From assembly GCA_019038625.1 (NCBI GenBank), contig JAHOYU010000147.1, positions 1 through 33,244 of the forward strand: a stretch of 33,244 nucleotides of DNA. The letters are read 5' to 3'. A model generated the notes under the pieces. It saw nothing but the letters and a program-made list of their open reading frames with translations, had not been told where the DNA came from and did not search any database. A program made the position numbers and the translations under genes. Position 1 is the stretch's first letter. Every line of letters begins with the position of its first letter. The stretch is from Candidatus Latescibacterota bacterium. Lineage in GTDB: Bacteria > Krumholzibacteriota > Krumholzibacteriia > Krumholzibacteriales > Krumholzibacteriaceae. Of this stretch, positions 2,098 through 29,787 are shown piece after piece.

Positions 2098-2152
2098 ACA
2101 GTGTTTATGTGGAACATCAGTTTAGATTCGGGGAACACTAGAAGAGGTAATA

Positions 2153-2287: not shown

Positions 2288-2318
2288 GTGTTGAGAACCG
2301 GAAAGAAGACCTTGCCCG

Positions 2319-2666: not shown

Positions 2667-2887
2667 TATCGAGAATTCTGACAATATTTGGCTTGTTTGC
2701 CATAAAGGTCTACAGAACAGCGGTTTCTCCGTATATCGCGCCAGCCTGCAAGCATACACCTTCCTGTTCACAATACGCCGAGGAAGCACTGAAAAAATAT
2801 GGTTTCTTCAAGGGCGGCCTGAAAGCTTTCTGGAGGCTACTAAGGTGTAATCCCTTCTCTGCCGGCGGTTACGACCCGGTTCGCTGA
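2663..2887 (+). CDS. yidD: Membrane protein insertion efficiency factor YidD
   Basis: YidD is a small membrane-associated protein that assists YidC in inserting proteins into the inner membrane. The 74-residue product has an N-terminal amphipathic or membrane segment followed by the family signature: VYRTAVSPYIAPACKHTPSCSQY, then a KYGFFKGGLKAFWRLLRCNPFSAGGYDPV-type ending (given here as key pieces), including the conserved cysteines. I chose the ATG at 2663, which overlaps the rnpA stop codon as ATGA and implies translational coupling; a TTG at 2657 would add two residues. It lies directly upstream of yidC, its functional partner. Confidence 0.95.
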   Translation: MISRILTIFGLFAIKVYRTAVSPYIAPACKHTPSCSQYAEEALKKYGFFKGGLKAFWRLLRCNPFSAGGYDPVR

Positions 2888-2923
2888 TAAAAACTGTTCA
2901 ATAAGAAGGAAGGAAAGTCGGGA

Positions 2924-4750: not shown

Positions 4751-4887
4751 AAGGACCGACAATAGACTTTTACCGGAAAGCCCCGGATGTGGGCTCCGGG
4801 CTGGAATGGAGATCAATAAGTTCAGGTAGAATAATAAGCTGAACAGGATCATGCTTACAATATCGACTGGGAAAAAGGGAGAGTAAT

Positions 4888-5583
4888 ATGAACAGGCCGG
4901 AAAAGACAGAATCAGGAAAGAGGACGATCGAGACCACAGGAAAGACCGTTGAAAAGGCCCTTGCGAAAGCGATGAAAGAACTTGCAGCGAAAGTGGAAGA
5001 TGTCGACATCGAGATCATCGAGGCTGGATCAAAGGGTGTACTCGGCATATTCGGAGCGAAAGAAGCAAAAATAAAGGCAACGTTAAAAAGAAGCTCGGCG
5101 GGCGTCGAAGAGGTGGCCGACGAAGTAACGAAGCTTATAATGAGTTGTCTGGATGTTAATTACAGACTGTTTTCAGATATTCTGGATGATACGACATATA
5201 TAAATATCGAAACAGCCGGAGTGGACGGGCTGTTGATAGGCAGAAAGGGAGATACGCTGAGCTCCCTGCAGCATCTGGTTGGCCGGATAGTATCCCGGAA
5301 GCTCGGTGGGTATCAGAGGCTGACCCTCGATGTCGGCGGGTATCTGAAAAACAGACAGGAGATCCTGAAGCAGAAGGCAGTGAAAGCAGCCGAAAGGGCG
5401 CGACAGACGAACAGAGATGTCGGACTGGAACCCATGAAAGCCTCGGAGAGACGGATAGTACACCTGGCCCTTACAGATATCGAAGGTATTTCAACATACA
5501 CGGTCGGCAACGGCGAGATGCGGAAAGTATTCGTTGCTCCAGAACATGGAGCGGAGAGAAAAAACCGCTATAACAGAAGATAA
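4888..5583 (+). CDS. jag: Jag/KhpB-type RNA-binding protein (Jag_N, KH, R3H)
   Basis: Jag (KhpB, EloR) proteins bind single-stranded RNA and in Gram-positives influence cell elongation; the role in this lineage is unknown. The 231-residue product has the three family parts in order: a Jag N-terminal domain (about 10-67, with GSKGVLGIFGAKEAKI), a KH domain with GRKG loop (118-121), and an R3H domain with the R-x3-H motif (Arg188-His192, in RRIVHLALTD). A GGGAGAG ribosome-binding site precedes the ATG. Only three bases separate its stop from mnmE. The yidC-jag-mnmE order is common near origins. Confidence 0.94.
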   Translation: MNRPEKTESGKRTIETTGKTVEKALAKAMKELAAKVEDVDIEIIEAGSKGVLGIFGAKEAKIKATLKRSSAGVEEVADEVTKLIMSCLDVNYRLFSDILDDTTYINIETAGVDGLLIGRKGDTLSSLQHLVGRIVSRKLGGYQRLTLDVGGYLKNRQEILKQKAVKAAERARQTNRDVGLEPMKASERRIVHLALTDIEGISTYTVGNGEMRKVFVAPEHGAERKNRYNRR

Positions 5584-5586
5584 GCT

Positions 5587-6954
5587 ATGGACGGTGAGAC
5601 TGTAGTAGCCCTGGCAACGCCGCCCGGCGAATCGGGGATCGCAGTTGTGCGGATCTCCGGAAAGCGGGCAGTGGACATAATCGAGGGGATGTCGCCCGGT
5701 GCGGCCGGGTGGAAATCCCACGAGATGCACCTTTCGCGCCTTGGAAACATAAATGGCGAGATCCTGGATGAGGCTCTCGCCGTTTGCATGCTGGCACCGA
5801 ATTCATATACAGGAGAAGATGTCGTTGAGATCTCATGCCACGGAAGCATGCACGTCACGGGCGCTATAATCGAAGATATCATCTCAAGGGGCGCTGAACA
5901 GGCAGGACAGGGAGAATTCACAAAAAGGGCTTATCTTAACGGACGAATGGACCTTGTCCAGGCGGAAGCAGTTGCGGATCTCATCTCTTCCGAGACGAGA
6001 CTTCAGAGCAGAGTGGCGCTTGCGCATCTGGGAGGAAGTCTTTCGAGGAAAATGGTAGAGATAGAAAACGGGCTTCTGGGACAGCTTGCGCTTGTGGAGG
6101 TGTCGATTGATTTCAGCGAGGAGGATATCGAGACCTGGTCAGCTGAGAGGCTGACGGAAATATCTGTGGAGACAAGAGGGAAGATAAGTGTCCTGTTGGA
6201 ATCCGAGATGGCAGGAAGAAAGCTGAGACAGGGTATAAGGATAACCATACTGGGTCCGAGAAACGCAGGGAAAAGTTCTCTCTATAACGCCCTTATTGGA
6301 GAAGAGAGAGCCATAGTCAGCGAGATCCCGGGGACGACGAGGGATGTTTTGAGGGAAAGGATCCACATAGGGGGGTTGACATATTACCTTGAGGATACTG
6401 CGGGGATAGCTGATACAGGCTGTGAGATCGAGGCGCGGGGGATCTCGATGGGCAGAGAGGCGGCAAGGGGGGCAGACATCGTTCTTTTCGTTCTGGATGG
6501 AAGCCATAGATCCAGGGCCGAAGATAGGGAAGAATTGCGCAATGTGAGCGCGGTCGAGCATATAGTCGTGTTGAACAAATCAGATCTCGGGCTGGCCGAG
6601 TCGACGGCGGATGTTGCCGGGAGATTTGGAGAGGCAGATGTAATAGCAGTATCCGCGCTTGGCGGAGAAGGGTTGGCCGATCTTCGAAGCGCCATTTTCG
6701 GAAGAACGGTCGGGGGCGATATCTCAAAGCTGGAAAAAGAAAGGATAGCCCTGAACACGAGGCAGAGCAACGCTCTGAAGGATGTGTCGGCCGCGCTGGC
6801 GAGGATGGAGAAGGAGATAGAACGGAAAGCCGGGCCTGAGATAGTAAGCATGGAACTCCGCGAGGCTATTGACGCGTGTGGGAAGGTTACCGGCAGGTCT
6901 GTGAGCCAGGACCTTCTGGACACGGTCTTTTCAAGGTTTTGTATAGGTAAATAG
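5587..6954 (+). CDS. mnmE: tRNA uridine-5-carboxymethylaminomethyl GTPase MnmE
   Basis: MnmE works with MnmG to modify the wobble uridine (U34) of certain tRNAs, using tetrahydrofolate-derived carbon. The 455-residue protein has the folate-binding N-terminal domain (about 1-118, from ETVVALATPPGESGIAVVRI), a helical domain, and an inserted G domain: G1 GPRNAGKS (223-230), G2 GTTRD (249-253), G3 DTAG (270-273), G4 NKSD (330-333). It ends in the conserved CIGK tail, whose Cys452 is catalytically important in the family. Length is normal. It starts three bases after jag and is followed 49 bp later by its partner mnmG. Confidence 0.97.
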   Translation: MDGETVVALATPPGESGIAVVRISGKRAVDIIEGMSPGAAGWKSHEMHLSRLGNINGEILDEALAVCMLAPNSYTGEDVVEISCHGSMHVTGAIIEDIISRGAEQAGQGEFTKRAYLNGRMDLVQAEAVADLISSETRLQSRVALAHLGGSLSRKMVEIENGLLGQLALVEVSIDFSEEDIETWSAERLTEISVETRGKISVLLESEMAGRKLRQGIRITILGPRNAGKSSLYNALIGEERAIVSEIPGTTRDVLRERIHIGGLTYYLEDTAGIADTGCEIEARGISMGREAARGADIVLFVLDGSHRSRAEDREELRNVSAVEHIVVLNKSDLGLAESTADVAGRFGEADVIAVSALGGEGLADLRSAIFGRTVGGDISKLEKERIALNTRQSNALKDVSAALARMEKEIERKAGPEIVSMELREAIDACGKVTGRSVSQDLLDTVFSRFCIGK

Positions 6955-7003
6955 TTGCAGACAATTAAGATATAAGTATAACAGGAATAATTACTGATAG
7001 TTT

Positions 7004-8938
7004 ATGGATAATAGATATGAAATAATAGTTGTCGGAGGAGGCCATGCCGGATGCGAGGCTGCCCTGGCTGCCGCAAGGATGGGTATCTCGACATTGCTGG
7101 TGACTATAAGCGAGGCTGATATAGCACGGATGCCGTGCAATCCGGCCATAGGAGGTCTGGCGAAAGGACAGCTGGTCCGAGAGATCGACGCTCTGGGGGG
7201 AGAGATGGGTGTCTGTATCGACAGCGCGGGCATACAGTTCAGAATGTTGAACCGGGGGAAAGGGCCCGCCGTCTGGTCACCAAGAGCTCAGGCCGACAAG
7301 AAGATATACCACGAAAAAATGCTCACGACTCTTCGTGAATGCAGGAATCTCGAACTCATGGAAGCGGAGGTGTCGAGGCTCGAAGTATCGGGAGGCAAGG
7401 TGACTGGAGTTGTAGTCGCGGGAGGCACGACGGTAGCGGCGGAAAAAGTCATCCTGGCCCTGGGGACATTTCCAAACGGGCTTATGCATATAGGGGAGAA
7501 GCAGATACCGGGTGGTCGGGAAGGAGAGCCGCCTTCGTGCTCACTTTCAGACGCGATGTCAGAACTCGGGCTGGAACGAAAAAGGCTAAAAACGGGGACT
7601 CCGGCCAGGCTGGCGAGGGACACCATCGATTATTCCTGCTGCGAAGAACAGCCCGGAGACCCGGAGCCCATGCCATTTTCCTTCAGGACCGACAGGCTCG
7701 AAGTCGACCAGGTAAGCTGCCATATAACATATACAGGTGAGAAGACTCACGAACTGATAAAGAAGAATATCGGGAGATCGCCGTTGTTCTCCGGGCAGAT
7801 AGAGGGTGTCGGGCCGAGGTATTGTCCATCGATCGAGGACAAGGTGGTCCGCTTTCCGGATAGACAGAGGCACCAGATATTTCTGGAGCCGGAGGGCAGG
7901 GATAGCGAAGAGATATATATTAATGGTATGTCGACAAGCCTTCCTGTCGATGTCCAGGCTGAAATGATCTCATCGGTGCCGGGCCTGGAGAACGCAAGGA
8001 TCATCCGGTACGGGTATGCGATAGAATATGATTTTTTTCCTCCATGGCAGATCCATTCGACCCTGGAATCGCGAAAGATCGGTGGACTTTACATGGCAGG
8101 GCAGGTCAACGGTACTTCGGGGTACGAGGAAGCTGCGGCACAGGGGCTTTGGGCGGGGATAAATGCGGTCCTGGATATAAGGGGCGATCTTCCATTCAGA
8201 CTTGGAAGACACCAGGCATACGCTGGCGTGATGGTAGATGACCTGATAACAAAGGATATTGATGAACCTTACAGGATGTTCACCTCAAGAGCGGAACACC
8301 GGCTTCTCCTGCGGCAGGACAACGCGGACGAAAGGCTGATGAGGTATGGGGCCAGGTTCGGGCTTCTGGAGCGGAAGATGTGGGAGGAGATGATCGACCG
8401 CAAAAAGAATGTACATAATGCTGCTCGAAGGCTGGAGAGAATAATGATATCTGCAAGCGACGCAAGCAACATCCTTGAAAGATCAGGGGCGCCGGGAGTG
8501 AAAGAGGCGAAAAGGGCATCAAAACTTCTTCAGAGGCCGGAGCTTGGGATCGAAGACCTCGAAGCGGTTCTGCCAGAAGGGCTTCGAGGCCTCTCCAAGA
8601 GAGAGAAGGAGATGCTCTCAATCGACCTTAAGTACGAGGGATACATAAAGAGACAGAAAAAAACGGCCCAGAAGATCATGAGAATGGACAAGACGCGCAT
8701 TCCGGACAAGTTTTCATTTGAGATAGACGCGCTAAGTATGGAAGCGAGGGAAAAGCTGGAGAAGTTCAGGCCCGAGACACTGGGGCAGGCATCGAGGATC
8801 ACAGGGGTGAGGAATTCGGACCTTTCGGTGCTCATGGTCTATCTCGGGCGGCATTTCCCCGATGGGGAGGATAGGCAAGGCTCCGGGGCGGGAGAAGCCA
8901 ACTCCTTCCGAAGAAAAGGTAAAGGGGGCGGGAGATGA
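7004..8938 (+). CDS. mnmG: tRNA uridine-5-carboxymethylaminomethyl enzyme MnmG (GidA)
   Basis: MnmG is the FAD- and NADH-dependent partner of MnmE in the cmnm5U34 tRNA modification. The 644-residue product has the N-terminal FAD-binding motif [17 protein letters not shown] (from residue 11), the signature [21 protein letters not shown], a second family signature [19 protein letters not shown] and the C-terminal helical domain that contacts MnmE and tRNA. Length is slightly over 620-630, explained by a Gly/Arg-rich tail. The ribosome-binding site is weak. The end overlaps rsmG by four bases (ATGA), suggesting coupled translation. Confidence 0.97.
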
Positions 8939-9609
8939 GTGACGCAAAAGACGAGCACGAAAAGATCGTGGGGGCGATTCTCGAAGGATCTCCTTTCGGG
9001 TTACAGGACAATGCCCTTGTCATGCTGAACCACTTTGTGTCGGAGTATCTACACTGGGGCCGCAGCATACATCTTGTAAGCAGGCGTGACCCCGGCTCTT
9101 CTCTGGCCACCCAGATTGTAGAATCACTGTTTATGCTGGATTTCGCCGGGAACCTGCTTTCCGGGAGAGGTGGTGGACCTTTTCAGGTCGCTGATGTCGG
9201 TTCGGGTTACGGATTTCCGGGCCTGGTGTGGAGCCTGGTGCGGGAGGACATGGATATAACGCTGGTAGAAAGAAAAGAAAAATGTGTCTCCTTCCTGGAG
9301 ATGATGATCTCGAGGATCGGCATGGGAAGGGTCCAGGTGATGAGGGCCGATGCGGGAAAGATTGATATACCACAGAGGTTCGATCTGGTGACGACAAAGG
9401 CGGCCGGCAGGCTTTCCGACGCCATCCCCATCGTATCCGGCCTGATGAATGATGATGGGCTTTACGTTACGATAAAGGAGGCGGCCTGGGAATGGGAAGT
9501 GGATGGGTTAGATTTGCGTGGGATGGTGCTGGTCTCCAGAGAGGATCTTCCGGGAAAGACCGGGGTATTGCTGGCATTTGGAAAAGAGGGCTGGGACGAT
9601 ACGCGATGA
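8935..9609 (+). CDS. rsmG: 16S rRNA (guanine-527-N7) methyltransferase RsmG
   Basis: RsmG (GidB) methylates N7 of G527 in 16S rRNA using S-adenosylmethionine. The 224-residue protein has the SAM-binding motif [12 protein letters not shown] (about 85-96; GSGAGFPG in most homologues), the following acidic residue in [14 protein letters not shown] (Glu112) and a KAAG segment where many homologues have SRAVA. It is somewhat divergent but the fold pattern and position, directly after mnmG with an ATGA overlap, fix the identity. The upstream domain carries the usual LxHF-x8-W-x3-IHLVS pattern. It ends the origin block before the parS sites. Confidence 0.93.
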
Positions 9610-9668
9610 TTCCACCGAAAAGCATGCTTTTTTAGTCCCTCGACGAGATGATCGCAGTTGGATCCCGG

Positions 9669-9684
9669 TGTTTCATGTGAAACA
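9669..9684. promoter_or_regulatory. parS: parS site 1 (one base off consensus)
   Basis: TGTTTCATGTGAAACA differs from the canonical palindrome only at one central base (C to T), which breaks perfect symmetry. ParB family proteins bind this site. It lies exactly 50 bp upstream of the second, perfect copy and about 1.4 kb upstream of parA. Confidence 0.85.
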
Positions 9685-9718
9685 TTTATCCCCGGTAGCC
9701 CGCCGACGCCTTGCCGGG

Positions 9719-9734
9719 TGTTTCACGTGAAACA
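9719..9734. promoter_or_regulatory. parS: parS site 2 (perfect consensus)
   Basis: TGTTTCACGTGAAACA is the canonical 16-bp parS palindrome recognised by chromosomal ParB. It lies between rsmG and the lipoprotein gene, 31 bp upstream of the -35 element of the promoter at 9766-9794, so ParB loading here could also influence that promoter (inference). Confidence 0.95.
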
Positions 9735-9765
9735 GGCACTGGGGGAAGCGAAGGACACTTTTTAA

Positions 9766-9794
9766 TTGATTTCCACGACGGGCCTGTCTATAAT
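9766..9794 (+). promoter_or_regulatory. Sigma-70-type promoter for lipoprotein-parAB unit
   Basis: TTGATT (9766-9771) and a perfect -10 TATAAT (9789-9794) are separated by the ideal 17 bp. A GAGGAG ribosome-binding site (9817-9822) and the start codon at 9829 follow. It is the only clear promoter seen before the lipoprotein-parA-parB-M23-bactofilin run. Confidence 0.75.
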
Positions 9795-9828
9795 CCTGTA
9801 GGCCCCACAATTATCCGAGGAGAAAAAT

Positions 9829-11028
9829 ATGCGTCATATTTCGTGGTATTTCAAGGCATTAGTGGTTTGTGTCGTGTTTGCCGGGGTCGCCGGTTGTGAC
9901 GACTCGGTGGACTTTAAAAACGCTACTCCGGGGAGCATTACCATAACAAAGGATCTTTGTTATCTGTCGGGAGGGGACGTAGTCGAGCTTAACTCTTCCG
10001 CCACCGATCCCGACGAAGACGAGATCTCTTTCGGCTGGGCGGCTACAGGGGGAGTTTTTAGTCCGGTTTCCGGCGAGGGGCGCAGCGTGACCTGGACGGC
10101 GCCGACAGAATCCGGGACATATACGCTGACCTTGAGTGTCTTCGACGGAATCGATACGGGAAGCAAGTCGATCGATATCGAAGTCGGCGAGGTGATACTT
10201 CTGCTGCCCGGGAGCAACGAATATTTCGATAACGGATCATACTATATATACAGTCAGGCGGCACATATTACGGTCAGGTTCCTGACGTCTCTAATCCTCC
10301 ACGAGGGCGTAACCATCATATTCGACAACGAATATGCAGGCATTACTGTCGAAGGAGATTTCCAGGCTCTCGGGAAACCGGGCAACCCGGTTGTTTTAAG
10401 GACAAACTATTGTCCAGGAGATTCGGAAGAAGAATGGGAGGGAGTCAAGTTTCAGGGCGAACACGCAATCGGTATAATGAAATATTGTGAGATCAGCAAT
10501 GCTTACACCGGTGTTTCTGTGCGGGACTATGCGACAGTCACCCTTGATACGATCAGCATATCTGATAGTGCAGAATTCGGTATCGAGATATACAACATGT
10601 CTAATGTAGAGATAACAGGGTGTAAAATATGGGATAACGGCCGCGGAATACGCAGTAACGATTCCGATGTCACGATCAGGAATTCGTCGATCCGATACAA
10701 TTACCAGTTTGGAATACATGCCGGCGGAGAAGCCGCTCCAAATCTGGATATAGAATACAGCAACGTCTCGAACAATGTTGAAGGGTTCCTTCTCTCCGAC
10801 GCCGCACGGCCGCGGGTCAAAAACTGCTCGATATTCTTAAATGAGGCTGGGATTAACAAATATGGGGTCCGGCTTTATGAATACGATGGTGGAGGGGTGC
10901 TTGATTTTACAGAAAACTTCTGGGGAGAGACCACATACGGTTCAATAGCGGCCATGATACATACACAGGGTGGTAACGCTACGGTTGATTTTAGTGACTG
11001 GCTGGATGAATCCCCGGCGGAAAACTAG
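9829..11028 (+). CDS. Lipoprotein with Ig/PKD-like and right-handed beta-helix domains
   Basis: The function is unknown. The 399-residue product starts with a lipoprotein signal peptide: a hydrophobic stretch ending in the lipobox VAGC (Cys23). Next comes a PKD/cadherin-like beta-sandwich (about 38-118; typical pieces are [11 protein letters not shown] and [12 protein letters not shown]). From about 150 to 370 runs a repetitive segment of short beta strands with many Asn, Ile, Gly and Ser (for example [16 protein letters not shown]), the pattern of a parallel right-handed beta helix (NosD/PbH1 type). Such helices bind or process polysaccharides in some families, but no catalytic residues are evident. 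It probably sits on the periplasmic or outer face of the envelope. A strong GAGGAG site precedes the ATG, and the stop is 16 bp before the parA start, so it is probably cotranscribed with parAB. Confidence 0.85.
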
Positions 11029-11044
11029 AGGAAAGACAATTTAT

Positions 11045-11854
11045 ATGAAGGGTAAGATGGGAAAAATAATAGCGATAGCCAATCAGAAGGGTGGGGTCGG
11101 GAAGACGACTACGGCCGTCAACCTGAGTGCCAGCCTGGGAGTGCTGGAAAAGAAGGTCCTTCTCGTTGACAGTGACCCCCAGGCCAACGCCAGCAGCGGC
11201 CTGGGAGTGAGGGCCCTGGAAGGCGACAAAACGGTATATGAAGTGCTTATAGGAGAAGCTGAGGCGGGCAATGTCATTGTCAATACAGAGCTTATGGACT
11301 TGCTCCCTTCACATCCCAGGCTGATAGGCGCCGAGATCGAGCTTGTTTCCCAGATAGCCCGTGAGAGAAAATTGAAATCAGCCCTGATGGGAATAAGAGA
11401 AAGATACGATTTTGTCATAATAGATTGCCCACCAAGCCTCGGGCTTATTACCCTCAATACACTTACGGCGGCTGATTCGATCCTTATCCCGATCCAGTGT
11501 GAATATTATGCACTCGAGGGGTTGAGCCAGCTGCTCAGCACCATAAGGATGGTACAGAAACACCTCAATCCCGACCTTGCGATAGAAGGTGTCCTGCTGA
11601 CCATGTTCGACAAGCGGTTAAGGCTTTCCAGCCAGGTGGCTGACGAAGCAATATCATATTTTGGAGAAAAGGTGTATGACAGCATCATTCCCAGAAATGT
11701 CAGGTTGAGCGAATGTCCGAGTTTCGGGATGCCTGTGATCCTCTACGATGTACAGAGTTCGGGAGCTAAAAGCTATCTGAAGCTGGCGACTGAACTGATC
11801 GAGAAGCAGAATTCGGGTTCGGCAGAGATAGCTGCCAGTGGGGGAGGTGGATGA
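11045..11854 (+). CDS. parA: Chromosome-partitioning ATPase ParA (Soj)
   Basis: ParA is the DNA-bound ATPase that, with ParB-parS, segregates the newly copied origin. From the ATG at 11045 the protein is 269 residues. It has the deviant Walker [16 protein letters not shown] (about 13-27, with the signature lysine before GG), the switch [10 protein letters not shown] (about 41-50) and Walker [16 protein letters not shown]. An SD-like AGAGGAAAG (11027-11035) overlaps the stop of the lipoprotein gene; an alternative ATG at 11057 with AAGGG upstream is possible. Upstream in-frame codons lie inside the previous gene and are unlikely. Its 3' end is coupled to parB. It lies about 1.3 kb from the parS pair. 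Confidence 0.96.
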
Positions 11855-11855
11855 T

Positions 11856-12713
11856 TTGAGAAAGAAAGTTCTTGGTCGAGGCTTGGAAGCTCTTATCTCA
11901 CAAGACCTTAAAGATAGCATTGCGGAGACTGAGCGAGTCCGGGAGATCGAGCTTGGAGAGATAGATCCCAACCCTCACCAGCCGAGGGACCACTTCGACG
12001 ACAGGCATCTGGATGAGCTGGCCGAATCTATAAAAAAGAATGGTGTACTTCAGCCCGTGGTCGTCAGGAGGGCTGGAGACAGATATCAGCTGATCGTGGG
12101 CGAGAGAAGGCTCAGGGCTTCAGGAATTGCCGGAAAGAATACAATTCCTGCCATAGTACGGAATGTCGATGACGATGACGCGCTGAAGCTGGCTCTGTTG
12201 GAGAACCTGCAGAGAGAGGATCTTAATCCGATAGAAGAAGCAAGGGGATATATCGCCCTCAGGCAGCGTACCGGATTGTCTGACAAGGAGATAGCAGCAA
12301 TACTTGGAAAGAACAGAAGTACTGTCGCGAATACTATAAGGCTTCTTAACCTGCCCGCCGAAGTGGTCGGGCTGATCGAGGAAGGTCGTCTCAGGGCGGG
12401 CCATGCCAGGGCCATACTCTCGGTCGATGGTGAAAAGGAACAGATAGCGTGGGCTAGAAAGGTCGTTGAGGACGGATTTACGGTGAGAGATATAGAGCTG
12501 GCCGTGAAACCGGAAAAGAAGAAAAGGCGCAGGAAAAAGAGTGCAAGCCGTGATCCGGTCCTTGCGGAGTTCGAGGAAAGGCTTGAGACAGTGCTTGGTA
12601 CAAGGGTGAGGATCCTCCCGAGAAAAAAAGGAGGACTGATCACAATTGAGTTCTTCTCCGACGATGACCTCGAGAGCATCCTGGAGAGGATAGGAGTAGA
12701 TATCACCCTTTAG
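11856..12713 (+). CDS. parB: Chromosome-partitioning protein ParB (Spo0J), CTPase fold
   Basis: ParB loads at parS, spreads as a CTP-dependent clamp and stimulates ParA. I place the start at the TTG at 11856 because a near-perfect GGAGGT (11843-11848) sits seven bases ahead and it gives the family N-terminus M-RKKVLGRGLEALI; a GTG at 11838 would add six residues. The 285-residue protein has the ParA-contacting N-terminus, the CTP-binding GERRLRA motif (82-88), ENLQREDLNPIEEA (116-129), a helix-turn-helix (about 141-164), a basic KKKRRRKK linker (221-228) and a C-terminal dimerisation domain. It starts one base after the parA stop. Confidence 0.95.
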   Translation: MRKKVLGRGLEALISQDLKDSIAETERVREIELGEIDPNPHQPRDHFDDRHLDELAESIKKNGVLQPVVVRRAGDRYQLIVGERRLRASGIAGKNTIPAIVRNVDDDDALKLALLENLQREDLNPIEEARGYIALRQRTGLSDKEIAAILGKNRSTVANTIRLLNLPAEVVGLIEEGRLRAGHARAILSVDGEKEQIAWARKVVEDGFTVRDIELAVKPEKKKRRRKKSASRDPVLAEFEERLETVLGTRVRILPRKKGGLITIEFFSDDDLESILERIGVDITL

Positions 12714-12759
12714 GTTCAAGCGGCTCCGGAGTCGCATAGGGCGGAAGATCGGGAATAAG

Positions 12760-13539
12760 ATGGAAAAAGAGACATTCTCCATTATCGTCGTACCTCACGA
12801 TATCAAAAAGACGAGGACCTACAAGGTCCCCTACAGGACGTTTTATACCGTAACAACGTTTCTTGCGATAGGGCTTGTTGCAATGGTTGTTTTTCTAAGC
12901 ACTTACGGAAAACTGCTGGTAAAGACGCGGGAGACTCTCATGCTCGAGCGACAGGTGAGAGAGTTGACGGTAAGGAATGAGAAGATAAGCGAGGTCATCC
13001 GAAATCTTTCGGAGATACATGCTATGGATCTGAAAGTGAGAGGGATGCTTGGCCTCGATATAGCAGAAGAAGACAGGCGGGCACTTGATAGCACATCACC
13101 GGCGGTAACTGCCGGAGAAACACAGCTTGAGAATGAAAAAACACAGATGCTGAGGGCGATACCCAGCTTTTGGCCTGTAAGAGGCTTTATTACAAAAGGT
13201 TACAACCTTGGGCGAGGGGAAGGAGACCCCACATATCATCCGGGGATCGACATTGGTGTGGAGCGGGGAGTGCCTGTGCGAGCGGCAGCTTCCGGGGTAG
13301 TGATCGATGTGGGGTGGGACGATATCTACGGATATATTGTTCAGATAGACCATGGGTACGGAATAAAAACTCTTTACGGACACAACGACAGGCTGGTAGT
13401 AATAAAGGGAGAACGGGTGGGTCGGGGACAGACGATAGCCCACGCTGGAAGCACGGGAAGGAGTACAGCTCCGCACCTGCATTTCGAGGTCACACAGGAT
13501 AACATCCAGGTGGACCCTTTAAAATACCTTTTAAAATGA
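12760..13539 (+). CDS. Membrane-anchored M23 (LytM-type) peptidoglycan endopeptidase
   Basis: M23 peptidases cleave peptide cross-links in peptidoglycan or, if inactive, regulate amidases. The 259-residue product has a cytoplasmic N-terminus, one membrane span (about 29-50), a coiled-coil-like stretch (about 52-85) and a C-terminal M23 domain (about 138-256). All zinc and catalytic positions are present: HPGID (His160, Asp164), GHN (His208) and HLHFE (His239, His241), so activity is expected. It lies 46 bp after parB, and its stop codon overlaps the ribosome-binding site of the bactofilin gene. M23-bactofilin pairing is a known theme in cell-shape control (Helicobacter Csd1-CcmA); the same partnership is inferred here. 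Confidence 0.93.
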   Translation: MEKETFSIIVVPHDIKKTRTYKVPYRTFYTVTTFLAIGLVAMVVFLSTYGKLLVKTRETLMLERQVRELTVRNEKISEVIRNLSEIHAMDLKVRGMLGLDIAEEDRRALDSTSPAVTAGETQLENEKTQMLRAIPSFWPVRGFITKGYNLGRGEGDPTYHPGIDIGVERGVPVRAAASGVVIDVGWDDIYGYIVQIDHGYGIKTLYGHNDRLVVIKGERVGRGQTIAHAGSTGRSTAPHLHFEVTQDNIQVDPLKYLLK

Positions 13540-13548
13540 GGTCAATAG

Positions 13549-14025
13549 ATGAAAAAAAAGAATCAGATGAAAGGATTCTCAAAATTCACGAAAGAGGGTG
13601 AAGAAATGAACGGAGAAGGAAAGATGAATTCAATTATTGGGCAAGGGTGCAAGATCAAAGGTACGATCGATGTCAAGGAAGGTACTCTCAGGGTCGACGG
13701 AGAATTTGAGGGGACGATTAATTGTCCGGGAACTCTGGTCGTAGGTAAGGACGGAAAGGTCAATGCCGACGTGAATGTTGCAAGCGCTGTCATAGGCGGG
13801 AAGGTAAACGGAAATATAGACGCCAGGGAAAAGATCGAACTGCAGGCCGGGTCAAGGCTCGAAGGCGATATCAAGACTACGAGGCTTGTGATCGATGAAG
13901 GTGTGTTTTTCGAGGGCTCCTGCAAGATGAGTCCGGACAACAAAACGGCAACTCCGTCACATGTGCCCGGGAAAGAAGAGGCGCAAAAAGACAAAAAAAG
14001 CAATTCGAATGCTTGGGCTAAATAG
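13549..14025 (+). CDS. Bactofilin family cytoskeletal protein
   Basis: Bactofilins polymerise without nucleotide into membrane-associated filaments that position cell-wall enzymes or chromosome-partition proteins. The 158-residue product has a short charged N-terminal tail (1-26), a core right-handed beta-helix (about 27-128) made of repeated Gly- and Val-rich turns such as GTIDVKEGTLRVDGEFEGTI and KVNGNIDAREKIEL, and a Lys/Ser-rich disordered tail. The ATG at 13549 has a GAGGT site six bases upstream; an internal ATG at MNGEGKMNSIIG would trim the basic tail. It closes the par-M23 run and is followed by the bidirectional terminator. Length and core are typical. Confidence 0.92.
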   Translation: MKKKNQMKGFSKFTKEGEEMNGEGKMNSIIGQGCKIKGTIDVKEGTLRVDGEFEGTINCPGTLVVGKDGKVNADVNVASAVIGGKVNGNIDAREKIELQAGSRLEGDIKTTRLVIDEGVFFEGSCKMSPDNKTATPSHVPGKEEAQKDKKSNSNAWAK

Positions 14026-14195: not shown

Positions 14196-14645
14196 TCATT
14201 TGATGTTGACCTTTATCTCCTTCGGGATCGCCTTTTCGGTCTTCGGCACGGTGATGTTCAATACGCCGTTTTTGTACTCCGCATCGACTCCTTCCGGCTC
14301 GGTATTGTCGGGGAGAGTAAAAGACCTCTCGAAGCTTCCACAGTGTCTTTCGCAAAGATGATAGTTCTTCTCTGTCGCCTTCTCTTCTTTCTTCTTCTCG
14401 CCCCTTATCGTGAGGATGTTCTCCTGGACTTCGATGCTGATCTCGTCTTTGTCCCTTCCGGGTATTTCGGCCGATATCTCATAATTGTTCTCATGCTCCT
14501 GAATATCGACCCTGGGTGTCCAACCGCGATAGTCAGTGTCAAGCCTCCTTCTGTTCACCAGGAAAAGATTGTTGAAAATATCGTCCATCTCACCCTGAAG
14601 GGTCTTGAGGCCCGTCGTTTCCGGGTACCATCTCATCAGTCTCAT
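14196..14645 (-). CDS. Small heat-shock protein, Hsp20/alpha-crystallin family
   Basis: Small heat-shock proteins are ATP-independent holdases that bind unfolding proteins. The 149-residue product has a short N-terminal arm and an alpha-crystallin domain (about 43-135) with the hallmarks VDIQEHENNYEISAEIPG, the ER-x2-GSFERSF pattern (ERHCGSFERSF, with Cys102 where Tyr is usual) and YKNGVLNITVPK. An I-x-V/I type tail is at the end (IKVNIK). A GGAGGT site (14651-14656 on the plus strand as ACCTCC) precedes the ATG. It is alone on the minus strand, divergent from the S8 protease, and shares the terminator at 14150-14177. No CIRCE element was seen upstream. Confidence 0.95.
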   Translation of the reverse strand: MRLMRWYPETTGLKTLQGEMDDIFNNLFLVNRRRLDTDYRGWTPRVDIQEHENNYEISAEIPGRDKDEISIEVQENILTIRGEKKKEEKATEKNYHLCERHCGSFERSFTLPDNTEPEGVDAEYKNGVLNITVPKTEKAIPKEIKVNIK

Positions 14646-15078: not shown

Positions 15079-18000
15079 ATGAAGGTAATTAACTACATAA
15101 TACTCTTTTTGAGTCTTCTCGTTATTCCTGCCATAGAAGGTGAATTAGATATAATAAATAGGACTAACATGATATTAGATGCCGAGAAAAACAATTTGGA
15201 CCCGAACAGAGATGAGGCCGGGTATATGCTTCTTGAGCATATGGTGGAAGAAGCGAATTATTTTATTCCTGCAGTCGATGATCGATTACAGGGGGGGGAC
15301 AGGTCCGAAAAAAGCAGAAGTGTTACTCTCTCATCTTCGATAGATCCAGGTCCTTCAATTCCGGGAGTCCGTGATCCTCTATGGGATCAGATGTGGGGGT
15401 GGCGTGCTGCGGGGCTCGAGGAGGCTTGGAAGCACGCGACGGGAGAAGGCGTGACTATAGCGATAATAGACACTGGATGCGACCTCGGACATCCCGACCT
15501 GGAGAAGTCTTTATGGACAAACGAAATGGAATTTTCGGGACTGCACGGGGTCGATGATGACGGAAATGGGTATATCGATGATCTGCACGGGTATGATTTC
15601 GTGTCTGTGTCAGAACAATCGATGGTTGAAGGAGAGGATGGATGGCCTCCGGACGGAGATCCAGGAGATACAAACGGCCATGGCACACATGTAGCGGGAA
15701 TAATCGGTGCCGTCGCCGGAAACGGACTGGGGATAGAGGGGGTTGCTCCTCGATGCCGGCTGATGATACTTCGAGCGGCCTACACCGACCTGTATGGAGC
15801 CGGGGCTCTATCCGGGCATGATGTAGCAGAAGCTATAAGGTATGCAGTCGCTATGGGTGCCGATGTGATTAACATGAGTTTCGGGGGGGGGTATTCTGAA
15901 GAGATACACCGGGAGATAATTATTGCGGAGAAGGAAGGCATCGTCCTCGTGTCTTCTGCTGGAAACAACGGGGCTGGATCTGAACTTTTTCCCGCTTCAT
16001 GTCTTGAGACGATCGCTGTGGGCGCTTCAGATCCAAACGGAAATCCTGCTATTTTCTCCTCCTGCGTTCCGGGCGTCGATTGCCTGGCACCTGGAGTATC
16101 TGTGATTTCGACCGGACCAGGCGGGTACGCGGTGAGAAGCGGCACATCTACGGCGGCGCCGTTTGTATCTGGGACGGCGGCACTCATACTTTCCGGACCA
16201 GAGCCTGTTCCCCTGGAAATGGTGAGAGGAAGGATCCTTTCGGGATGTCTGCGTGAAGGATCAGACGATGAGATCCTCTACGGGTGCAGAGGTTGCGGTA
16301 ATATCCGGGCCGACCTGTCGATCGCCGCGAACACGCGCTATTTCGCTGTTCCGGAAAGTTCGGAATTAATTACAGATGATATATCGGACTGTGGAATCTA
16401 TCCGCCCGGGCGAAAGTTCATATTAATTGTGAGGGCGAGAAATCTTCTCGAACGTATCGAGGGTGGACAGATTCAGATCGAGCCAGACAGGGAAGGTATT
16501 TTCACGGTCGCCCCGGTAGTGAGTGAGCAGATCGATCTGGGAACGGACGAGATCTTTGAAGCCCGGTACGAGTTGGTATCTCTGGTCCCCATCGATGAGG
16601 GGGAGATGATCGGGTTCAGATTCTCACTGGTATGTGATGGGGAGATCCAGACAACAGGGATAGATCAGCAGGTCCCGGCAGCTCCTCGTTATACAAGTGG
16701 GGCGGTGGCTCTGTTTGAAATGCCGGGGGACGGAAACGGGGCGGCAGATCCGGGAGAGAGGATAGAACTGGAAATAGAGATATACGGTCCGGACGACGGA
16801 GGAACAATATCATCCTGCCTTGATGTCTCGGAAATATCCACCGTAGGGAGCGGGTTTCTGGTATCGGAAGCAGTTTTGAACGGGGAAGGACGGGCTTTGC
16901 TCAGCTTTGAATTCGTTATAGCAGATTTGAACGAGGACAGGCCGGATCTTTCCCTTTCGGGCTCTGTCCCGGCATATCTTCCGCTTTCAATAGAGGGTGA
17001 AGATGCCCGGAATACGACGGAGATACCGTTATGGATATCATACCGCGGAGATGCCTTTACATCCGATCCCCCCGTCTGTTTCCAGGGGGGAGGCGCTCAT
17101 ACGGGGATCTTCCATGATGGGCCGGGCACCGACTTGAAAATGAAATGGAATTACGATATTCCAGGAACGGGAAGCATAGTCTGTCAGCCCGCGGTCTCCA
17201 GAAAAATGGTCTTTGCGGCAAGAAGAGAAGGCGAAAAGAGTGTTGTATACGCAGTCGACAGGGCTTCCGGAGGATTCCTCTGGAGGAGAAAGCTGCCGGG
17301 TGAATGCAGGCACGCGCCACGGTCGATGCTCTGGGCAGGGGGAGTCCTTTTTGTGCCATCGGGACGATATCTCTGTGCCGTGGACTGTGAGACTGGAGCA
17401 ATCGTATGGTCGCGGACCGTGGGTGTCGAAGAGGGGTGGAAATATACGGCCGGTGAACCGGTGGGTGACCAGGATGTGATCGTCTGTACATTCCACTGTC
17501 CGGAAACGGGAGCAGATGACATCGTCATGGCTATGGATCGTCTGACGGGTAACAGGCTCTGGATCGACAGGGATCATGAGATGGTCTATGGAACGGCTCC
17601 TCCGGCGTTAGACAGGACAGAGCTTGTGGTGGTCGATCTGGCCGGAAGGATGGCAGCCTTCGATATCAGCTCGGGAAGACGGCTGTGGACGATAGAGACC
17701 GGGATCTCCCCTGGATTCCCACTGATGATCTCCTCCCATGCGGCTATCATATGTGGAGGAGGCGGAAGGATCGGTGCCTTTCTGATCGAAGACGGTATGG
17801 CACTATGGGAATGTGAAACGGGTGCAATACCACAGGGTCCTCCCTGCTTGACGCCAGACGGGATGATGACGGTCGTCGTAAGGACCGGACTCGTTCCCGG
17901 CATTCTTCGGATCGGGCCATCGGGAGATCTCGATTCTCCCCTGGCGGAGATAGGAGGGTATGGGTTCTCCGGGGCGATCTCGTCAGGAGGGATGATTTTT

Positions 18001-18471
18001 TCCGGAAGGGAAGACGGCAGGATAGGGATCTATTCCACTGCCGGGGAGTCGATAGCGGAGGTTCCGATAGCTCCGGGCGAAGATGCCGCAGCGAAGTTGC
18101 CGTTTATAAGTGGAGAAGAACTTTATGTATGTGTGAATACGAACGGCAGGGATATTCTGATAGCATTGGCCCATTCTGGCGGGCAGGCACCTTCCGTTCG
18201 GGGCAGGATCGTGAACTACCCCAACCCCTTCAATCCTTCGACTACCATCCGATTCATCAATGGCTCGGGCGGGCATGTGAGGCTGCGTGTGTTCGATGTG
18301 GCCGGGAGGCTGGTGAGGACGATTGTCGATGAATTCCTTCCTGCCGGACCCGGCGAATATACCTGGGATGGTCTGACAGAAAAGGGAAGTGTCGCGTCGT
18401 CGGGTGTCTTCTTCGCTATGCTCGAGTGCCCGGACGGGACCTTCACACGCAAGATACTATTGTTGAAATAG
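15079..18471 (+). CDS. Secreted S8 subtilase with beta-propeller and FlgD-like C-terminal domain
   Basis: This 1130-residue protein is a predicted secreted serine protease. It has an N-terminal signal peptide (about 1-19), a propeptide-like stretch, and a subtilisin domain (about 105-395). The catalytic triad is visible: Asp131 in IIDTGCD, His201 in NGHGTHVAG and Ser357 in RSGTSTAAPFVSG, with the oxyanion Asn in SAGNN (about 296). Then follow beta-sandwich regions with GDGNGAADPGE (about 549-559), a PQQ-like beta-propeller (about 680-1010, blades with TGAIVWSR, TGNRLWID, SGRRLWTI and similar) and a FlgD/T9SS-type C-terminal domain (about 1044-1130, from NYPNPFNPSTTIRF). The latter is a common feature of secreted FCB proteins and suggests export and cell-surface anchoring. 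Two G tracts (8 and 9 Gs) lie in the coding sequence. The promoter was not found; SD is weak AGGAAA. Substrate is unknown. Confidence 0.9.
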   Translation: MKVINYIILFLSLLVIPAIEGELDIINRTNMILDAEKNNLDPNRDEAGYMLLEHMVEEANYFIPAVDDRLQGGDRSEKSRSVTLSSSIDPGPSIPGVRDPLWDQMWGWRAAGLEEAWKHATGEGVTIAIIDTGCDLGHPDLEKSLWTNEMEFSGLHGVDDDGNGYIDDLHGYDFVSVSEQSMVEGEDGWPPDGDPGDTNGHGTHVAGIIGAVAGNGLGIEGVAPRCRLMILRAAYTDLYGAGALSGHDVAEAIRYAVAMGADVINMSFGGGYSEEIHREIIIAEKEGIVLVSSAGNNGAGSELFPASCLETIAVGASDPNGNPAIFSSCVPGVDCLAPGVSVISTGPGGYAVRSGTSTAAPFVSGTAALILSGPEPVPLEMVRGRILSGCLREGSDDEILYGCRGCGNIRADLSIAANTRYFAVPESSELITDDISDCGIYPPGRKFILIVRARNLLERIEGGQIQIEPDREGIFTVAPVVSEQIDLGTDEIFEARYELVSLVPIDEGEMIGFRFSLVCDGEIQTTGIDQQVPAAPRYTSGAVALFEMPGDGNGAADPGERIELEIEIYGPDDGGTISSCLDVSEISTVGSGFLVSEAVLNGEGRALLSFEFVIADLNEDRPDLSLSGSVPAYLPLSIEGEDARNTTEIPLWISYRGDAFTSDPPVCFQGGGAHTGIFHDGPGTDLKMKWNYDIPGTGSIVCQPAVSRKMVFAARREGEKSVVYAVDRASGGFLWRRKLPGECRHAPRSMLWAGGVLFVPSGRYLCAVDCETGAIVWSRTVGVEEGWKYTAGEPVGDQDVIVCTFHCPETGADDIVMAMDRLTGNRLWIDRDHEMVYGTAPPALDRTELVVVDLAGRMAAFDISSGRRLWTIETGISPGFPLMISSHAAIICGGGGRIGAFLIEDGMALWECETGAIPQGPPCLTPDGMMTVVVRTGLVPGILRIGPSGDLDSPLAEIGGYGFSGAISSGGMIFSGREDGRIGIYSTAGESIAEVPIAPGEDAAAKLPFISGEELYVCVNTNGRDILIALAHSGGQAPSVRGRIVNYPNPFNPSTTIRFINGSGGHVRLRVFDVAGRLVRTIVDEFLPAGPGEYTWDGLTEKGSVASSGVFFAMLECPDGTFTRKILLLK

Positions 18472-18596: not shown

Positions 18597-20483
18597 TTGT
18601 CTCTCAGGAGTCCGATAACACTGATACTGATGATAGTCATGCTGCTGTCCGGCTGTGGTGGTGGGAAGGTGACAGAGTACTCCATTGAGCAGTTCCTCGA
18701 TTACAGGATAGTCGCCGGAGGTTCTTTTTCTCACGACGAGACGAAACTGCTGTTCACTATGGACAGCATGGAGACTTTCAACGCCTGGACGGTCCCGGTC
18801 GCCGGCGGGAAACCGGTCACCCTGACCGATTCGAGGAAGGCTCCAGTGTTTGCCCTTTCATATTTCCCCGATGACGACAGGTTTCTTTTCCTGTCCGATA
18901 AAAGCGCCAGGGGCAATTACCATTTATATCTCATGGATGAAAACGGAGATGTGACCGATCTCACACCGGAAAAGAAAGCCCGGGCAGTTTTCTATGGCTG
19001 GACCCGCGACAGAAAACATATGATCTTCGGGTCGAACAAGAGGGATCCGAGATTTACAGATATATACCTGATGAATGTCGAGAAGATGAAGCCGAAGATG
19101 ATATTTTTAAATGACAGGGGATACAATTTCGGGCATCTCTCGTCAAATATGAGATACATGTCGTTCTCCCGGTACAGGACGGAACATGACTCGCAGATGT
19201 ATATATACGACAGGGACACGGGTGAGATGAAAGACATATCCCGCCATACAGGCGAGGTACATTATCAGCCCCTCGAGTTCTGCAGCGAGTCGAGATATCT
19301 ATATTACCTTACAAACAGTGGGAGCGAGTTCCGGTACCTTCGCAGATACGATCTGGCAACCGGCGAGAGCGAGACTGTCGAGACGGCGGAATGGGATATC
19401 GTATATTCGTATTTCTCATATGACGGCAAGTACAGGATGACCGGAATAAACGTGAACGGAAAGACAGAGATCAGGATCTATGACGAGACTACTGGCGAAA
19501 GGGTGGAGATACCGGAAGCCCCGACCGGAGAGATCTCAAATGTCGGATTCTCGCGAAGCGGAAGGTATATGAAGTATTCGGTCAACAGTCCGCATTCGCC
19601 GAACGATCTTTACGTCTATGATTTCCAGACTGGACGACACACGAGGGTGACCCGGGCGATGAACCCGGAAATAGATATGGCAGACCTTGTGGATGCCGTG
19701 GCGGTCAGGTACAGGTCTTTCGACGGTGAGGTCATCCCGGCTGTATTGTACAAGCCGAAGAAGATCAGGGCAGGGGACCGCGTCCCGGCGCTGGTCTACG
19801 CTCATGGTGGCCCCGGAGGCCAGTCAACATTCAGGTACAAGGCATTATTCCAGTATATGGCTAACCATGGCTATGTGGTCCTGGCGCCGAACAACCGCGG
19901 CAGCAACGGGTATGGAAAGAGATTCCTTTCTCTGGATGACAGGAAGCACGGGCGTGACGATCTACAGGATCTTATCGAAGGAAAGAACTGGCTCATCAAA
20001 ACAGGCTATGTAGACCCCGAAAGGATAGGGATCATCGGTGACAGTTACGGTGGATTCCTGGTGCTCTCCGCGATGGCTTTCCATCCGTCTGAATTCGCCG
20101 TCGGTGTCGATCTGTTCGGGATAGCGAACTGGATAAGGACTCTCAGGGACCTTCCCTCGTACTGGGAAAATTACAAGGATGCCTTTTATCGTGAAATGGG
20201 TTATCCTGACAAGGATGAGGAGTACCTCAGAGGCATTTCTCCCATCTATCACGCAGAACGGATAACGGACCCGCTCATGGTGATACAGGGGGGGAAGGAC
20301 AACTGGGTGCTGAAGGTCGAGGCAGAAGAGGTGGTCGACACGGTGAAGCGGGGAGGAGTCGACGTCGAATACATGCTGTTCGAAGATGAGGGACACGGGT
20401 TTTCCGGGAAGACCAACCGGTTGAAGGCTTACAGGGGGATCCTCGAATTTCTGGACAGGCATCTGAAAGACACGAAAAAATAA
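18597..20483 (+). CDS. S9 family prolyl-oligopeptidase-like lipoprotein
   Basis: S9 peptidases cleave short peptides, often after proline, with a beta-propeller gate over an alpha/beta-hydrolase domain. The 628-residue product starts at a TTG with a strong AAGGAGG site (18586-18592), and only this start gives the lipoprotein signal ending in LLSGC (Cys20). Residues about 30-370 form a WD40/TolB-type propeller (for example SHDETKLLFTMDS, DIYLMNVEKMK). The hydrolase domain (about 380-628) has HGGPGGQ, the nucleophile GDSYGG (Ser483), GGKDNWV (Asp568) and EGHGF (His600). The membrane anchor suggests a periplasmic enzyme that could digest peptides released by the neighbouring secreted S8 protease (inference). 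It is followed 25 bp later by the moxR gene. Confidence 0.93.
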   Translation: MSLRSPITLILMIVMLLSGCGGGKVTEYSIEQFLDYRIVAGGSFSHDETKLLFTMDSMETFNAWTVPVAGGKPVTLTDSRKAPVFALSYFPDDDRFLFLSDKSARGNYHLYLMDENGDVTDLTPEKKARAVFYGWTRDRKHMIFGSNKRDPRFTDIYLMNVEKMKPKMIFLNDRGYNFGHLSSNMRYMSFSRYRTEHDSQMYIYDRDTGEMKDISRHTGEVHYQPLEFCSESRYLYYLTNSGSEFRYLRRYDLATGESETVETAEWDIVYSYFSYDGKYRMTGINVNGKTEIRIYDETTGERVEIPEAPTGEISNVGFSRSGRYMKYSVNSPHSPNDLYVYDFQTGRHTRVTRAMNPEIDMADLVDAVAVRYRSFDGEVIPAVLYKPKKIRAGDRVPALVYAHGGPGGQSTFRYKALFQYMANHGYVVLAPNNRGSNGYGKRFLSLDDRKHGRDDLQDLIEGKNWLIKTGYVDPERIGIIGDSYGGFLVLSAMAFHPSEFAVGVDLFGIANWIRTLRDLPSYWENYKDAFYREMGYPDKDEEYLRGISPIYHAERITDPLMVIQGGKDNWVLKVEAEEVVDTVKRGGVDVEYMLFEDEGHGFSGKTNRLKAYRGILEFLDRHLKDTKK

Positions 20484-27949: not shown

Positions 27950-28069
27950 AGTAGTTAAGACAGAATGGGAAGGTAGCCCGTACGTAGACCCCGGTGAAAG
28001 AGTCGGGATGACGTGCCAGCGGCCTTTCGTGTGTGGCAGATCCAGCGGATCTATTTGAGAGGAGAGAAC

Positions 28070-29767
28070 ATGAAAAAGACTGTAATCATCATTGTCGCCA
28101 TGGCTTTGGCGCTCGCGGCGGGCTGTTCGAAGACCGACCGCAAAGACCTGATCGTTGCCGAGATCGATACGAAGACTATTACCCTGGCGGATTTTGAGAC
28201 GACGGCGGAAACGCTGGAAAACAAATATCTGCCGGAAACCGCCGACATGGAGGGAAAGAAGGAACTCCTGCATCACATGATCAACAAGGAAGTCATGGCG
28301 CTCAAGGCCACCTCCCTCGGGTATGAGAGAGACGAGGATTTCAAAAAGTTCTGGGACCAGTTCAAGGGCCCGTTTCTCGTGACGGCTCTATGGAACGAGG
28401 AGATAACGAAGAAGGTCGAAGTCTCAGAAGAAGAGATAGATTATTATTTCGAGCAGATGCAGTACGAATATACTCTGAGCCAGATCATCCTCGCCAATGA
28501 AGAGGAAGCTTATGAGTTGAGGGAAATGATAATCGAGGGCGAGGATTTCGGAGAGATGGCGAAAAAGTACTCGCTTGGCAAGGGTGCGGAGAACGGGGGC
28601 CATGTCGGCAGCTCTCCCGTAGGCAAGATACATTGGTGGGTGGAGGAAGTCCTTTTCGAAACGAAGGAAGGCGAAGTCTCTTCTCCGGTCAAGACAGATA
28701 CAGGATGGGCCCTTCTGAAAGTCCACCGCAAGAGAAAGATCATTCCCGATCTCGACAGGGATTACGCGATGAAGCGGGTCAGGGGTATTAAGGAATACAA
28801 GGGCCGTAACGATCTGAAGACCAGGATCGAAACTGATATCCACCTGCAGGTATTCACAGACGCTGTAAATATTGTTTTCGACGCCCTCCCGGAAGATGTC
28901 CCGTTTGAGGAGATAGTCAATTACAGGGTGACGAGGAACAATGCTCCCAAGCTCGAGGTGATGTCGCAGTATATCGACATGCTGCTCATCCAGCACGACG
29001 ACGGTAGTTACACCATTGGAGATTTCATCGAACTGTATGACCGCGCTTCACTGGTAGAGAGGCCGAGGCGCCAGTATGGTCGCGAAAGTATCGTTCAATT
29101 GCTCAAGAAGGTCATCTACGACAAGATCCTCCCCGTATACGCGGAGAATATAGCGAAGGTCCTCGAAGTACCCGAAGTGAAGAAGAACCTCGAGAACAGA
29201 AAAGAGCAGTTTCTGGTCTATAGACTCTATCAGGACCAGATCACGGACGAGGTCTCTGTGACCGATCGCCAGGTCAGGGAATATTACGACAACAACAAGG
29301 AATACCTGGCAACGAAGGAGCAGAGGGATTATCAGATATTGATCAACTCCGATCACGAAATAGCAAAACAGGCATCGGCATTGGCAAAGAACGGAGAGGA
29401 TTTCGACGCTCTGGTCAGGAGATTTTCGCAGGATCCTACGAAAAAAGAGAACATGGGGAGAACAGGTCTGATCTACTCTGGTAAATACATGGAATATGAC
29501 TCCCAGGCGTTCAGCCTTCCCAACGAGGGTGATGTCTCCGAGCCTTTCTCCTTTTCACGCGGATGGGCAGTCGTAAAGGTCATGGAGATCGTCCCCGGCA
29601 GGGTCCCGACCCTCCAGGAAGCTTCGGGCACCATCCGAAAAGAGCTGATGGAAACGAAGGGCGAAGAACTGCTCGCCGGGAAGATCAAAGGCTGGAGTGA
29701 GGATTATATTATCAAGATCAACGAGAAGAATCTCGCGAAGGCCAGGATGGAAAGGACCAGACTCTGA
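28070..29767 (+). CDS. Lipoprotein with two parvulin (PpiC) domains
   Basis: Parvulins catalyse cis-trans isomerisation of prolyl bonds or act as chaperones for exported proteins. From the ATG at 28070 (GAGAGGAGAG site upstream) the product is 565 residues. A signal peptide ends in the lipobox LAAGC (Cys19). There is a SurA-N-like helical region, a first parvulin repeat (about 133-223) and a second (about 417-510, FSQDPTKKENMGRTGLIYSG). Both repeats lack the conserved histidines: TLSQIIL and DYQILI replace SHIL, and GWALLKV and GWAVVKV replace GYHIIKV, so it may be a chaperone rather than an isomerase. The long middle (about 230-410) is unassigned. It begins 120 bp after mfd, with AGATCC-AGC-GGATCT just before the ribosome site, and is followed by another parvulin gene. 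Confidence 0.87.
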   Translation: MKKTVIIIVAMALALAAGCSKTDRKDLIVAEIDTKTITLADFETTAETLENKYLPETADMEGKKELLHHMINKEVMALKATSLGYERDEDFKKFWDQFKGPFLVTALWNEEITKKVEVSEEEIDYYFEQMQYEYTLSQIILANEEEAYELREMIIEGEDFGEMAKKYSLGKGAENGGHVGSSPVGKIHWWVEEVLFETKEGEVSSPVKTDTGWALLKVHRKRKIIPDLDRDYAMKRVRGIKEYKGRNDLKTRIETDIHLQVFTDAVNIVFDALPEDVPFEEIVNYRVTRNNAPKLEVMSQYIDMLLIQHDDGSYTIGDFIELYDRASLVERPRRQYGRESIVQLLKKVIYDKILPVYAENIAKVLEVPEVKKNLENRKEQFLVYRLYQDQITDEVSVTDRQVREYYDNNKEYLATKEQRDYQILINSDHEIAKQASALAKNGEDFDALVRRFSQDPTKKENMGRTGLIYSGKYMEYDSQAFSLPNEGDVSEPFSFSRGWAVVKVMEIVPGRVPTLQEASGTIRKELMETKGEELLAGKIKGWSEDYIIKINEKNLAKARMERTRL

Positions 29768-29787
29768 TAAAGGCTGGTATCCGACCA

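Follow-up and report, generated by a model that had tools for sequence, protein, structure and literature searches.

Introduction

The closest described systems that emerged in our work are the serine KLIKK proteases of Tannerella forsythia, of which mirolase is reportedly subtilisin-like, being so called in a paper title. Mirolase, miropsin-1, and miropsin-2 are exported by the type IX secretion system (T9SS) and carry at the C-terminus a signal domain with a lysine in its final strand, as described in the available parts of two papers (PMC11285876, PMC4404884). These enzymes and the protein described here are all serine proteases with a T9SS C-terminal domain; however, the same parts mention no propeller for the KLIKK-type enzymes, and they describe an N-terminal profragment, whereas none was recognised in our protein. 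The combination of propeller and sorting domain is found in PorZ, which according to the available part of its description has two propellers and a T9SS C-terminal domain at the cell surface, but which has no protease (PMC5445135). S8 proteases that are followed by propeller-type repeats were also present in our own material, namely in a Zixiibacteriota protein that is likewise tailed (L034) and in a protein of the same class (L176), but their repeats are of the FG-GAP (integrin) type and not of the PQQ/BamB type, and their S8 domains lie outside the clade described below. In the S9 prolyl oligopeptidases and DPP-IV, and in tricorn-type proteases, a propeller is joined to a protease as well, but with another protease fold or clan and another domain order. 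BamB is a protein-binding scaffold, and its fold is best known from periplasmic assembly.

Here we describe a gene from a Candidatus Latescibacterota genome that joins an S8 protease, a BamB-like propeller, and a putative T9SS-type tail in one chain. The domain combination is unusual, each part being of a known kind. By "window" we mean the whole stretch of DNA that was analysed, 33,244 nucleotides in length.

Results

The gene starts with ATG and contains no internal stop, and the sequence of its parts (Table 1) suggests that the product is probably a protein-cutting enzyme that is exported to the cell surface. The signal peptide was called by eye, and its boundary is approximate. Pfam recognised no propeptide domain at E-values up to 1 in the approximately 75 residues before the S8 domain. 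Between protease and propeller lies a region of about 250 residues that the original prediction, made from the sequence alone, had missed, and for which Pfam gives no match. A GDGNGxxDPGE motif occurs twice in this region in the orthologs, and its first copy has decayed in the window protein; the region probably comprises two beta-sandwich domains. A structure prediction of the full-length protein, computed from a two-row alignment, reached a mean pLDDT of 29.6.

Table 1. Positions of the S8 gene, its parts, and its neighbours in the window
Feature	Position	Strand	Basis
S8 protease–propeller–T9SS tail protein	15079..18471	+	1130 aa; intact ORF; Pfam
Likely Sec signal peptide, residues ~1-22	15079..15144	+	MKVIN, then hydrophobic run; by eye
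N-terminal stretch, residues 23-97	15145..15369	+	no Pfam match at E up to 1
Peptidase_S8 catalytic domain, residues 122-373	15442..16197	+	PF00082, E 5e-47; conserved catalytic columns
Catalytic residues	D131 at 15469, H204 at 15688, N296 at 15964, S357 at 16147	+	sequence
Middle region, residues 421-678, contains GDGNGAADPGE	16339..17112	+	no Pfam match
Predicted eight-bladed BamB/PQQ-like beta-propeller, residues 679-1034	17113..18180	+	PF13360; PDB profile search; model and fold searches
Putative T9SS type A/FlgD-like C-terminal sorting tail, residues 1044-1130	18208..18468	+	profiles; orthologs over cut-off
M23 peptidase and bactofilin, conserved site marker	12760..14025	+	PF01551, PF04519; synteny
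Hsp20 small heat-shock protein, upstream, conserved site marker	14196..14645	-	PF00011, E 9.2e-28
S9 prolyl-oligopeptidase-type lipoprotein, downstream	18597..20483	+	PF00326, E 3.4e-47; LLSGC lipobox by eye

The S8 domain scores 161 bits in Pfam against a cut-off of 21.8, and it matched subtilases in the PDB with E-values down to 4.8e-37. The catalytic triad is complete, as had been claimed at the outset: D131 (in AIIDTGC), H204 (in HGTHVAG), and S357 (in SGTSTAA) occur in the canonical order, with N296 (in SAGNNGA) as the oxyanion residue. D131 and H204 were found in each of the four sequences that cover these positions, and N296 and S357 in five of five, the window protein included in both counts; the G022 sequence lacks the N-terminal part and that of G004 the whole protease, their contigs ending there. 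The catalytic residues are kept in orthologs that are 34–38% identical overall, and the domain would be expected to cleave proteins.

As for the propeller, the PQQ_2/BamB profile PF13360 matches residues 720–910 (E 8.5e-20, 71.8 bits against 27.6), and it also matches all three orthologs that were scanned. A propeller profile built from six orthologs matched solved BamB chains with E-values of 3.6e-25 to about 1e-24, and designed Cake propellers and PQQ dehydrogenases were matched as well. The AlphaFold model of residues 665–1039 has a pTM of 0.70 and a mean pLDDT of 65, with a weak stretch of about 45 around model residues 212–250, and the best Foldseek match to this model is BamB from Pseudomonas (4hdj, E 1.7e-15). 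With VIA-align, model residues 15–370, which are residues 679–1034 of the protein, gave Z-scores of 30–32 to eight-bladed propellers, among them BamB 4xga (Z 31.3, 2.8 Å over 318) and the designed Tako8 (Z about 30.5); equal scores were obtained for eukaryotic WD proteins, for instance Fbw7, and we take BamB and the eukaryotic matches to have this number of blades. At moderate pLDDT, the model thus predicts eight blades in a closed ring. The original prediction had described about 300 residues of [TS]G-x-x-[LIV]W-type blades between positions 680 and 1010, an idea that was to be given up if structure prediction found no propeller there. Pfam, the ortholog profile, and the model all bear out the propeller, and the model is BamB-like; the proposed extent was slightly short, and the signature, in the form [TSD]Gxx[LIV]W, is carried by five blades, the remaining ones being degenerate. 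As Pfam, the profile search against the PDB, and the model agree, an artefact of low complexity or chance repeats was ruled out. The shared fold leaves the ligand of the propeller unspecified.

Identity as a PQQ-dependent dehydrogenase was rejected, the score being far too low (TIGR03075, 34.1 against 480.05 bits), and the protein is not a PorZ ortholog, since NF052228 reached 16.8 of the required 260 bits and matched the tail only, at residues 1042–1121. BamB proper was likewise ruled out (TIGR03300, 55 bits against a cut-off of 285.2; domain fused to a protease). The two propellers are alike in being eight-bladed, with Z about 30 and a profile E-value of about 1e-25, but BamB stands alone as a lipoprotein within the BAM complex, whereas the domain described here, which is 13–19% identical to it, sits inside a secreted protease.

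The tail of the window protein (NYPNPFNPSTTIRF...RKILLLK) stays below the cut-offs of the relevant profiles, with 22.8 bits against 23 for TIGR04183, 25.6 against 27 for FlgD_ig, and 17 against 27 for PF18962. Ortholog tails exceed the cut-off of 27, with 28.1 bits for PF18962 in L131 and 31.7 bits for FlgD_ig in L129, and a different tail from the same genome shares 51% identity with that of the window protein. The FlgD/T9SS-type C-terminal domain of the original prediction is thereby supported, the window tail itself falling just short by FlgD_ig and TIGR04183. Membership of the KLIKK proteases was ruled out, as the protein ends in RKILLLK and not in KLIKK.

The genome to which the window belongs (G000) comprises 3.78 Mb and is 96% complete. 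PF18962 has 82 matches in it, and three of its five other S8 ORFs carry this tail. PorU (NF033707, 572 against 420) and PorV (NF033709, 220 against 90) were found over their cut-offs, the PorV match starting 250 bases after that of PorU on contig C89, and there are eight PorV-family matches over the cut-off in all. SprA (TIGR04189), which is split over two contigs, reaches 298.8 bits summed over one frame against a cut-off of 200. For the motor/ring, GldM and GldK profiles were searched: GldM had no match in the genome, in a search whose control likewise matched nowhere, and the best GldK match, a 271-aa frame, had 86 bits against 350. Of the T9SS genes that had been suggested as a check, PorU was thus found, as were SprA and PorV, whereas the motor/ring may have diverged, may lie outside the assembled sequence, or may be lacking altogether. 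Transport of the protease to the surface by a T9SS, which the original prediction had implied, is well supported at the level of sequence by SprA, PorU, PorV, and the number of tails. On a separate note, contigs C114, C97, and C89, with SprA, PorU, and several PorV homologues, together with the 82 tail matches, possibly represent a T9SS with a divergent or different motor. Contig C3 of this genome (L187, 1908–5402) encodes a further secreted protein, which combines PQQ-type propeller repeats with a T9SS-type tail and whose N-terminal stretch is by eye not a protease.

A query consisting of the middle region and the propeller detected orthologs in 6 of 80 genomes of the phylum (G000, G009, G010, G004, G023, and G022), all of them in one order of 25 genomes; no ortholog was detected in the other 19 genomes of this order, some of which are incomplete. 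A seventh match, a 385-aa frame in G033 with two propeller stretches and neither S8 domain nor tail, was left out of the count. For comparison we used 17 S8 ORFs of similar size from 15 regions of other families of the class. A motif filter kept 13 of these, which were covered by the Pfam scan, and the four others were still included in the propeller-profile search and in the tree. FlgD_ig was found in 12 of the 13 scanned ORFs, FG-GAP and a beta-helix in one each, and PQQ_2 in none. The propeller profile, which was built from the orthologs and hence matches these by construction, detected no BamB-type propeller in any of the 17. Among 93 S8 ORFs of another locus set, a similar tail occurs in eight and a propeller of this type in one, L009, which is apparently the same record as the G023 contig (5918 bases, identical protein). 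In an S8-domain tree of 38 rows, the four ortholog S8 domains form one clade with support of 100/99, which suggests a single origin of the fusion group; the window branch is long (0.78). The domain order, of which the original prediction knew no characterised example, is thus unusual in one respect, as the BamB version was seen in one ortholog group only, and less so in another, as S8 domains with tails are common and Zixiibacteriota L034 has the parallel architecture of S8, FG-GAP, and tail. Judged by these sequences, the S8 domain with a T9SS-type tail is commonplace in the phylum, and the BamB-type propeller is the particular feature. Searches of a PubMed Central collection, a scope that leaves subscription papers outside, listed no description of an S8–BamB propeller fusion.

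In the window, dnaA (minus strand) is followed by yidC, jag, mnmE, mnmG, rsmG, parA, parB, the M23 and bactofilin genes, Hsp20 (minus strand), the S8 gene, the S9 lipoprotein peptidase gene, MoxR, DUF58, BatA, TRCF/Mfd, and three rotamase genes, and positions 257–14025 would by their gene content be the origin-of-replication region. The adjacency of M23 and bactofilin genes is widespread, according to the available part of a published analysis (PMC10945521). Hsp20 is present in 21 of the 36 loci L129–L164 of relatives. The 1 kb upstream of the S8 gene contains no Rfam RNA at E 0.05 and no tRNA; the space holds the Hsp20 gene. The S9 gene adjoins the S8 gene also in G022. G009 has the same order, except that an ABC-type ATPase gene (identified by eye) separates S8 from S9, and in G010 the S9 gene lies on another contig. 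G010 and G023 share the upstream side of the window locus and G022 the downstream side, and in G004 the intervening genes are, by eye, those of ABC transporters.

Eight relatives (G001, G006, G008, G011, G012, G014, G015, and G017) have the site, as defined by bactofilin, Hsp20, and S9 genes on one contig, without the S8 gene. In G015, which belongs to the same genus as G009, the site contains only the ABC-type ATPase gene. In G001, which belongs to the genus of the window genome, DNA homology ends at window position 14714 and resumes at 18448, in the last codons of the S8 gene, with one 67-base match between these positions. There, G001 (L135, about 2606–2640) encodes VRKILLLKQT-stop as compared to TRKILLLK-stop in the window (18448–18471); the last seven codons (RKILLLK) survive, and their four differences are, by eye, all synonymous. 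A scan of the eight gene-less sites for relics of the terminal motif detected one in G001 only. This remnant is a deletion scar, from which it follows that the common ancestor of the genus already had the S8 gene. Orthologs sit at the corresponding position in two families, and repeated loss would therefore be the simplest history. We do not favour a recent horizontal arrival, since in two families the orthologs are accompanied by the same M23–bactofilin–Hsp20 or S9 markers and their S8 domains form one clade. The gene-less sites and the scar also show that the protein can be dispensed with and does not belong to the core of the ParAB–bactofilin locus.

Discussion

We propose, with moderate confidence, that the protein is a T9SS-exported surface subtilase, that its propeller is a docking module for substrate or partner proteins, and that its products are trimmed by the S9 peptidase. 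The signal peptide would direct Sec export, and the type A tail would then mediate passage through the outer membrane by SprA/PorV, as suggested by the components and the tail together with general T9SS biology; by the same biology, PorU may cut off the tail and attach the protease to the cell. The S8 domain, with its complete triad, would cut extracellular proteins. The propeller, separated from the S8 domain by about 250 residues that probably form beta-sandwiches, would bind substrate or partner proteins and deliver them to the protease—we assume protein binding because BamB is a scaffold of this kind—and it may in this way choose the substrate, as in the "targeted" protease of the original prediction. 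The S9 lipoprotein peptidase, whose gene is a neighbour, may trim the resulting fragments. The enzyme would have an optional nutritional or surface-processing role and would not be essential to the origin/ParAB/bactofilin locus. A bolder version, to which we give very little credence, is a gated unit displayed by the T9SS beside the S9 enzyme, in which the propeller would act as a feeder or filter for unfolded proteins on their way into the subtilisin active site; such a unit, on an equally faint expectation, would be an independent counterpart of the propeller gate in S9 prolyl oligopeptidases.

A rather unlikely but serious alternative is that the propeller has no contact with the substrate and anchors or scaffolds the protease, via a surface polysaccharide, an outer-membrane protein, or the T9SS, in the manner of PorZ. 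Saccharides and proteins are among the possible ligands of propellers, and the T9SS has in PorZ a propeller protein with a C-terminal domain, as far as the available part of its description goes (PMC5445135). The fold matches also include BamB, a scaffold. Against a PorZ-like function, however, stands the fact that the PorZ profile matches the tail only, and most genomes of the phylum lack the S8–propeller gene, which is therefore no core part of the T9SS.

It is distinctly improbable that the protein is a maturation protease that trims the surface proteins of its own cell rather than feeding on protein from outside. Its fixed place by envelope genes (M23, bactofilin) and the approximately 80 tail-bearing frames of the genome would agree with such a task, but the gene is undetected in 19 of the 25 genomes of the order, incomplete ones among them, and has been cleanly lost in a relative of the same genus. 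Decay of the gene in the window lineage, with little function left, would account for the patchy presence, the deletion in G001, the lost first GDGNG motif, and the long S8 branch, but it is very unlikely given the intact frame of 1130 codons, the intact catalytic residues, and the exclusively synonymous differences (by eye) from G001 in the last seven codons.

The surface subtilase with a docking propeller, as preferred here, extends the range of accessory modules on T9SS subtilases by a BamB-type propeller, and the fusion makes it possible to test whether the BamB fold can bind substrates or surfaces outside the cell. It also presents a large secreted protease that is repeatedly absent from a conserved origin-proximal site, in one case with a deletion scar, and which is thus accessory. 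In other respects, nothing here is out of the ordinary for bacteria that have many T9SS-type tails. Apart from the S8 gene, the window contains a right-handed beta-helix protein (PF13229, 9829–11028) between rsmG and parA, which is kept at this place in G009 and G010 with 34–35% identity, and, downstream of the TRCF/Mfd gene, three successive genes for PPIC-type rotamase/SurA-like proteins (28013–32038).
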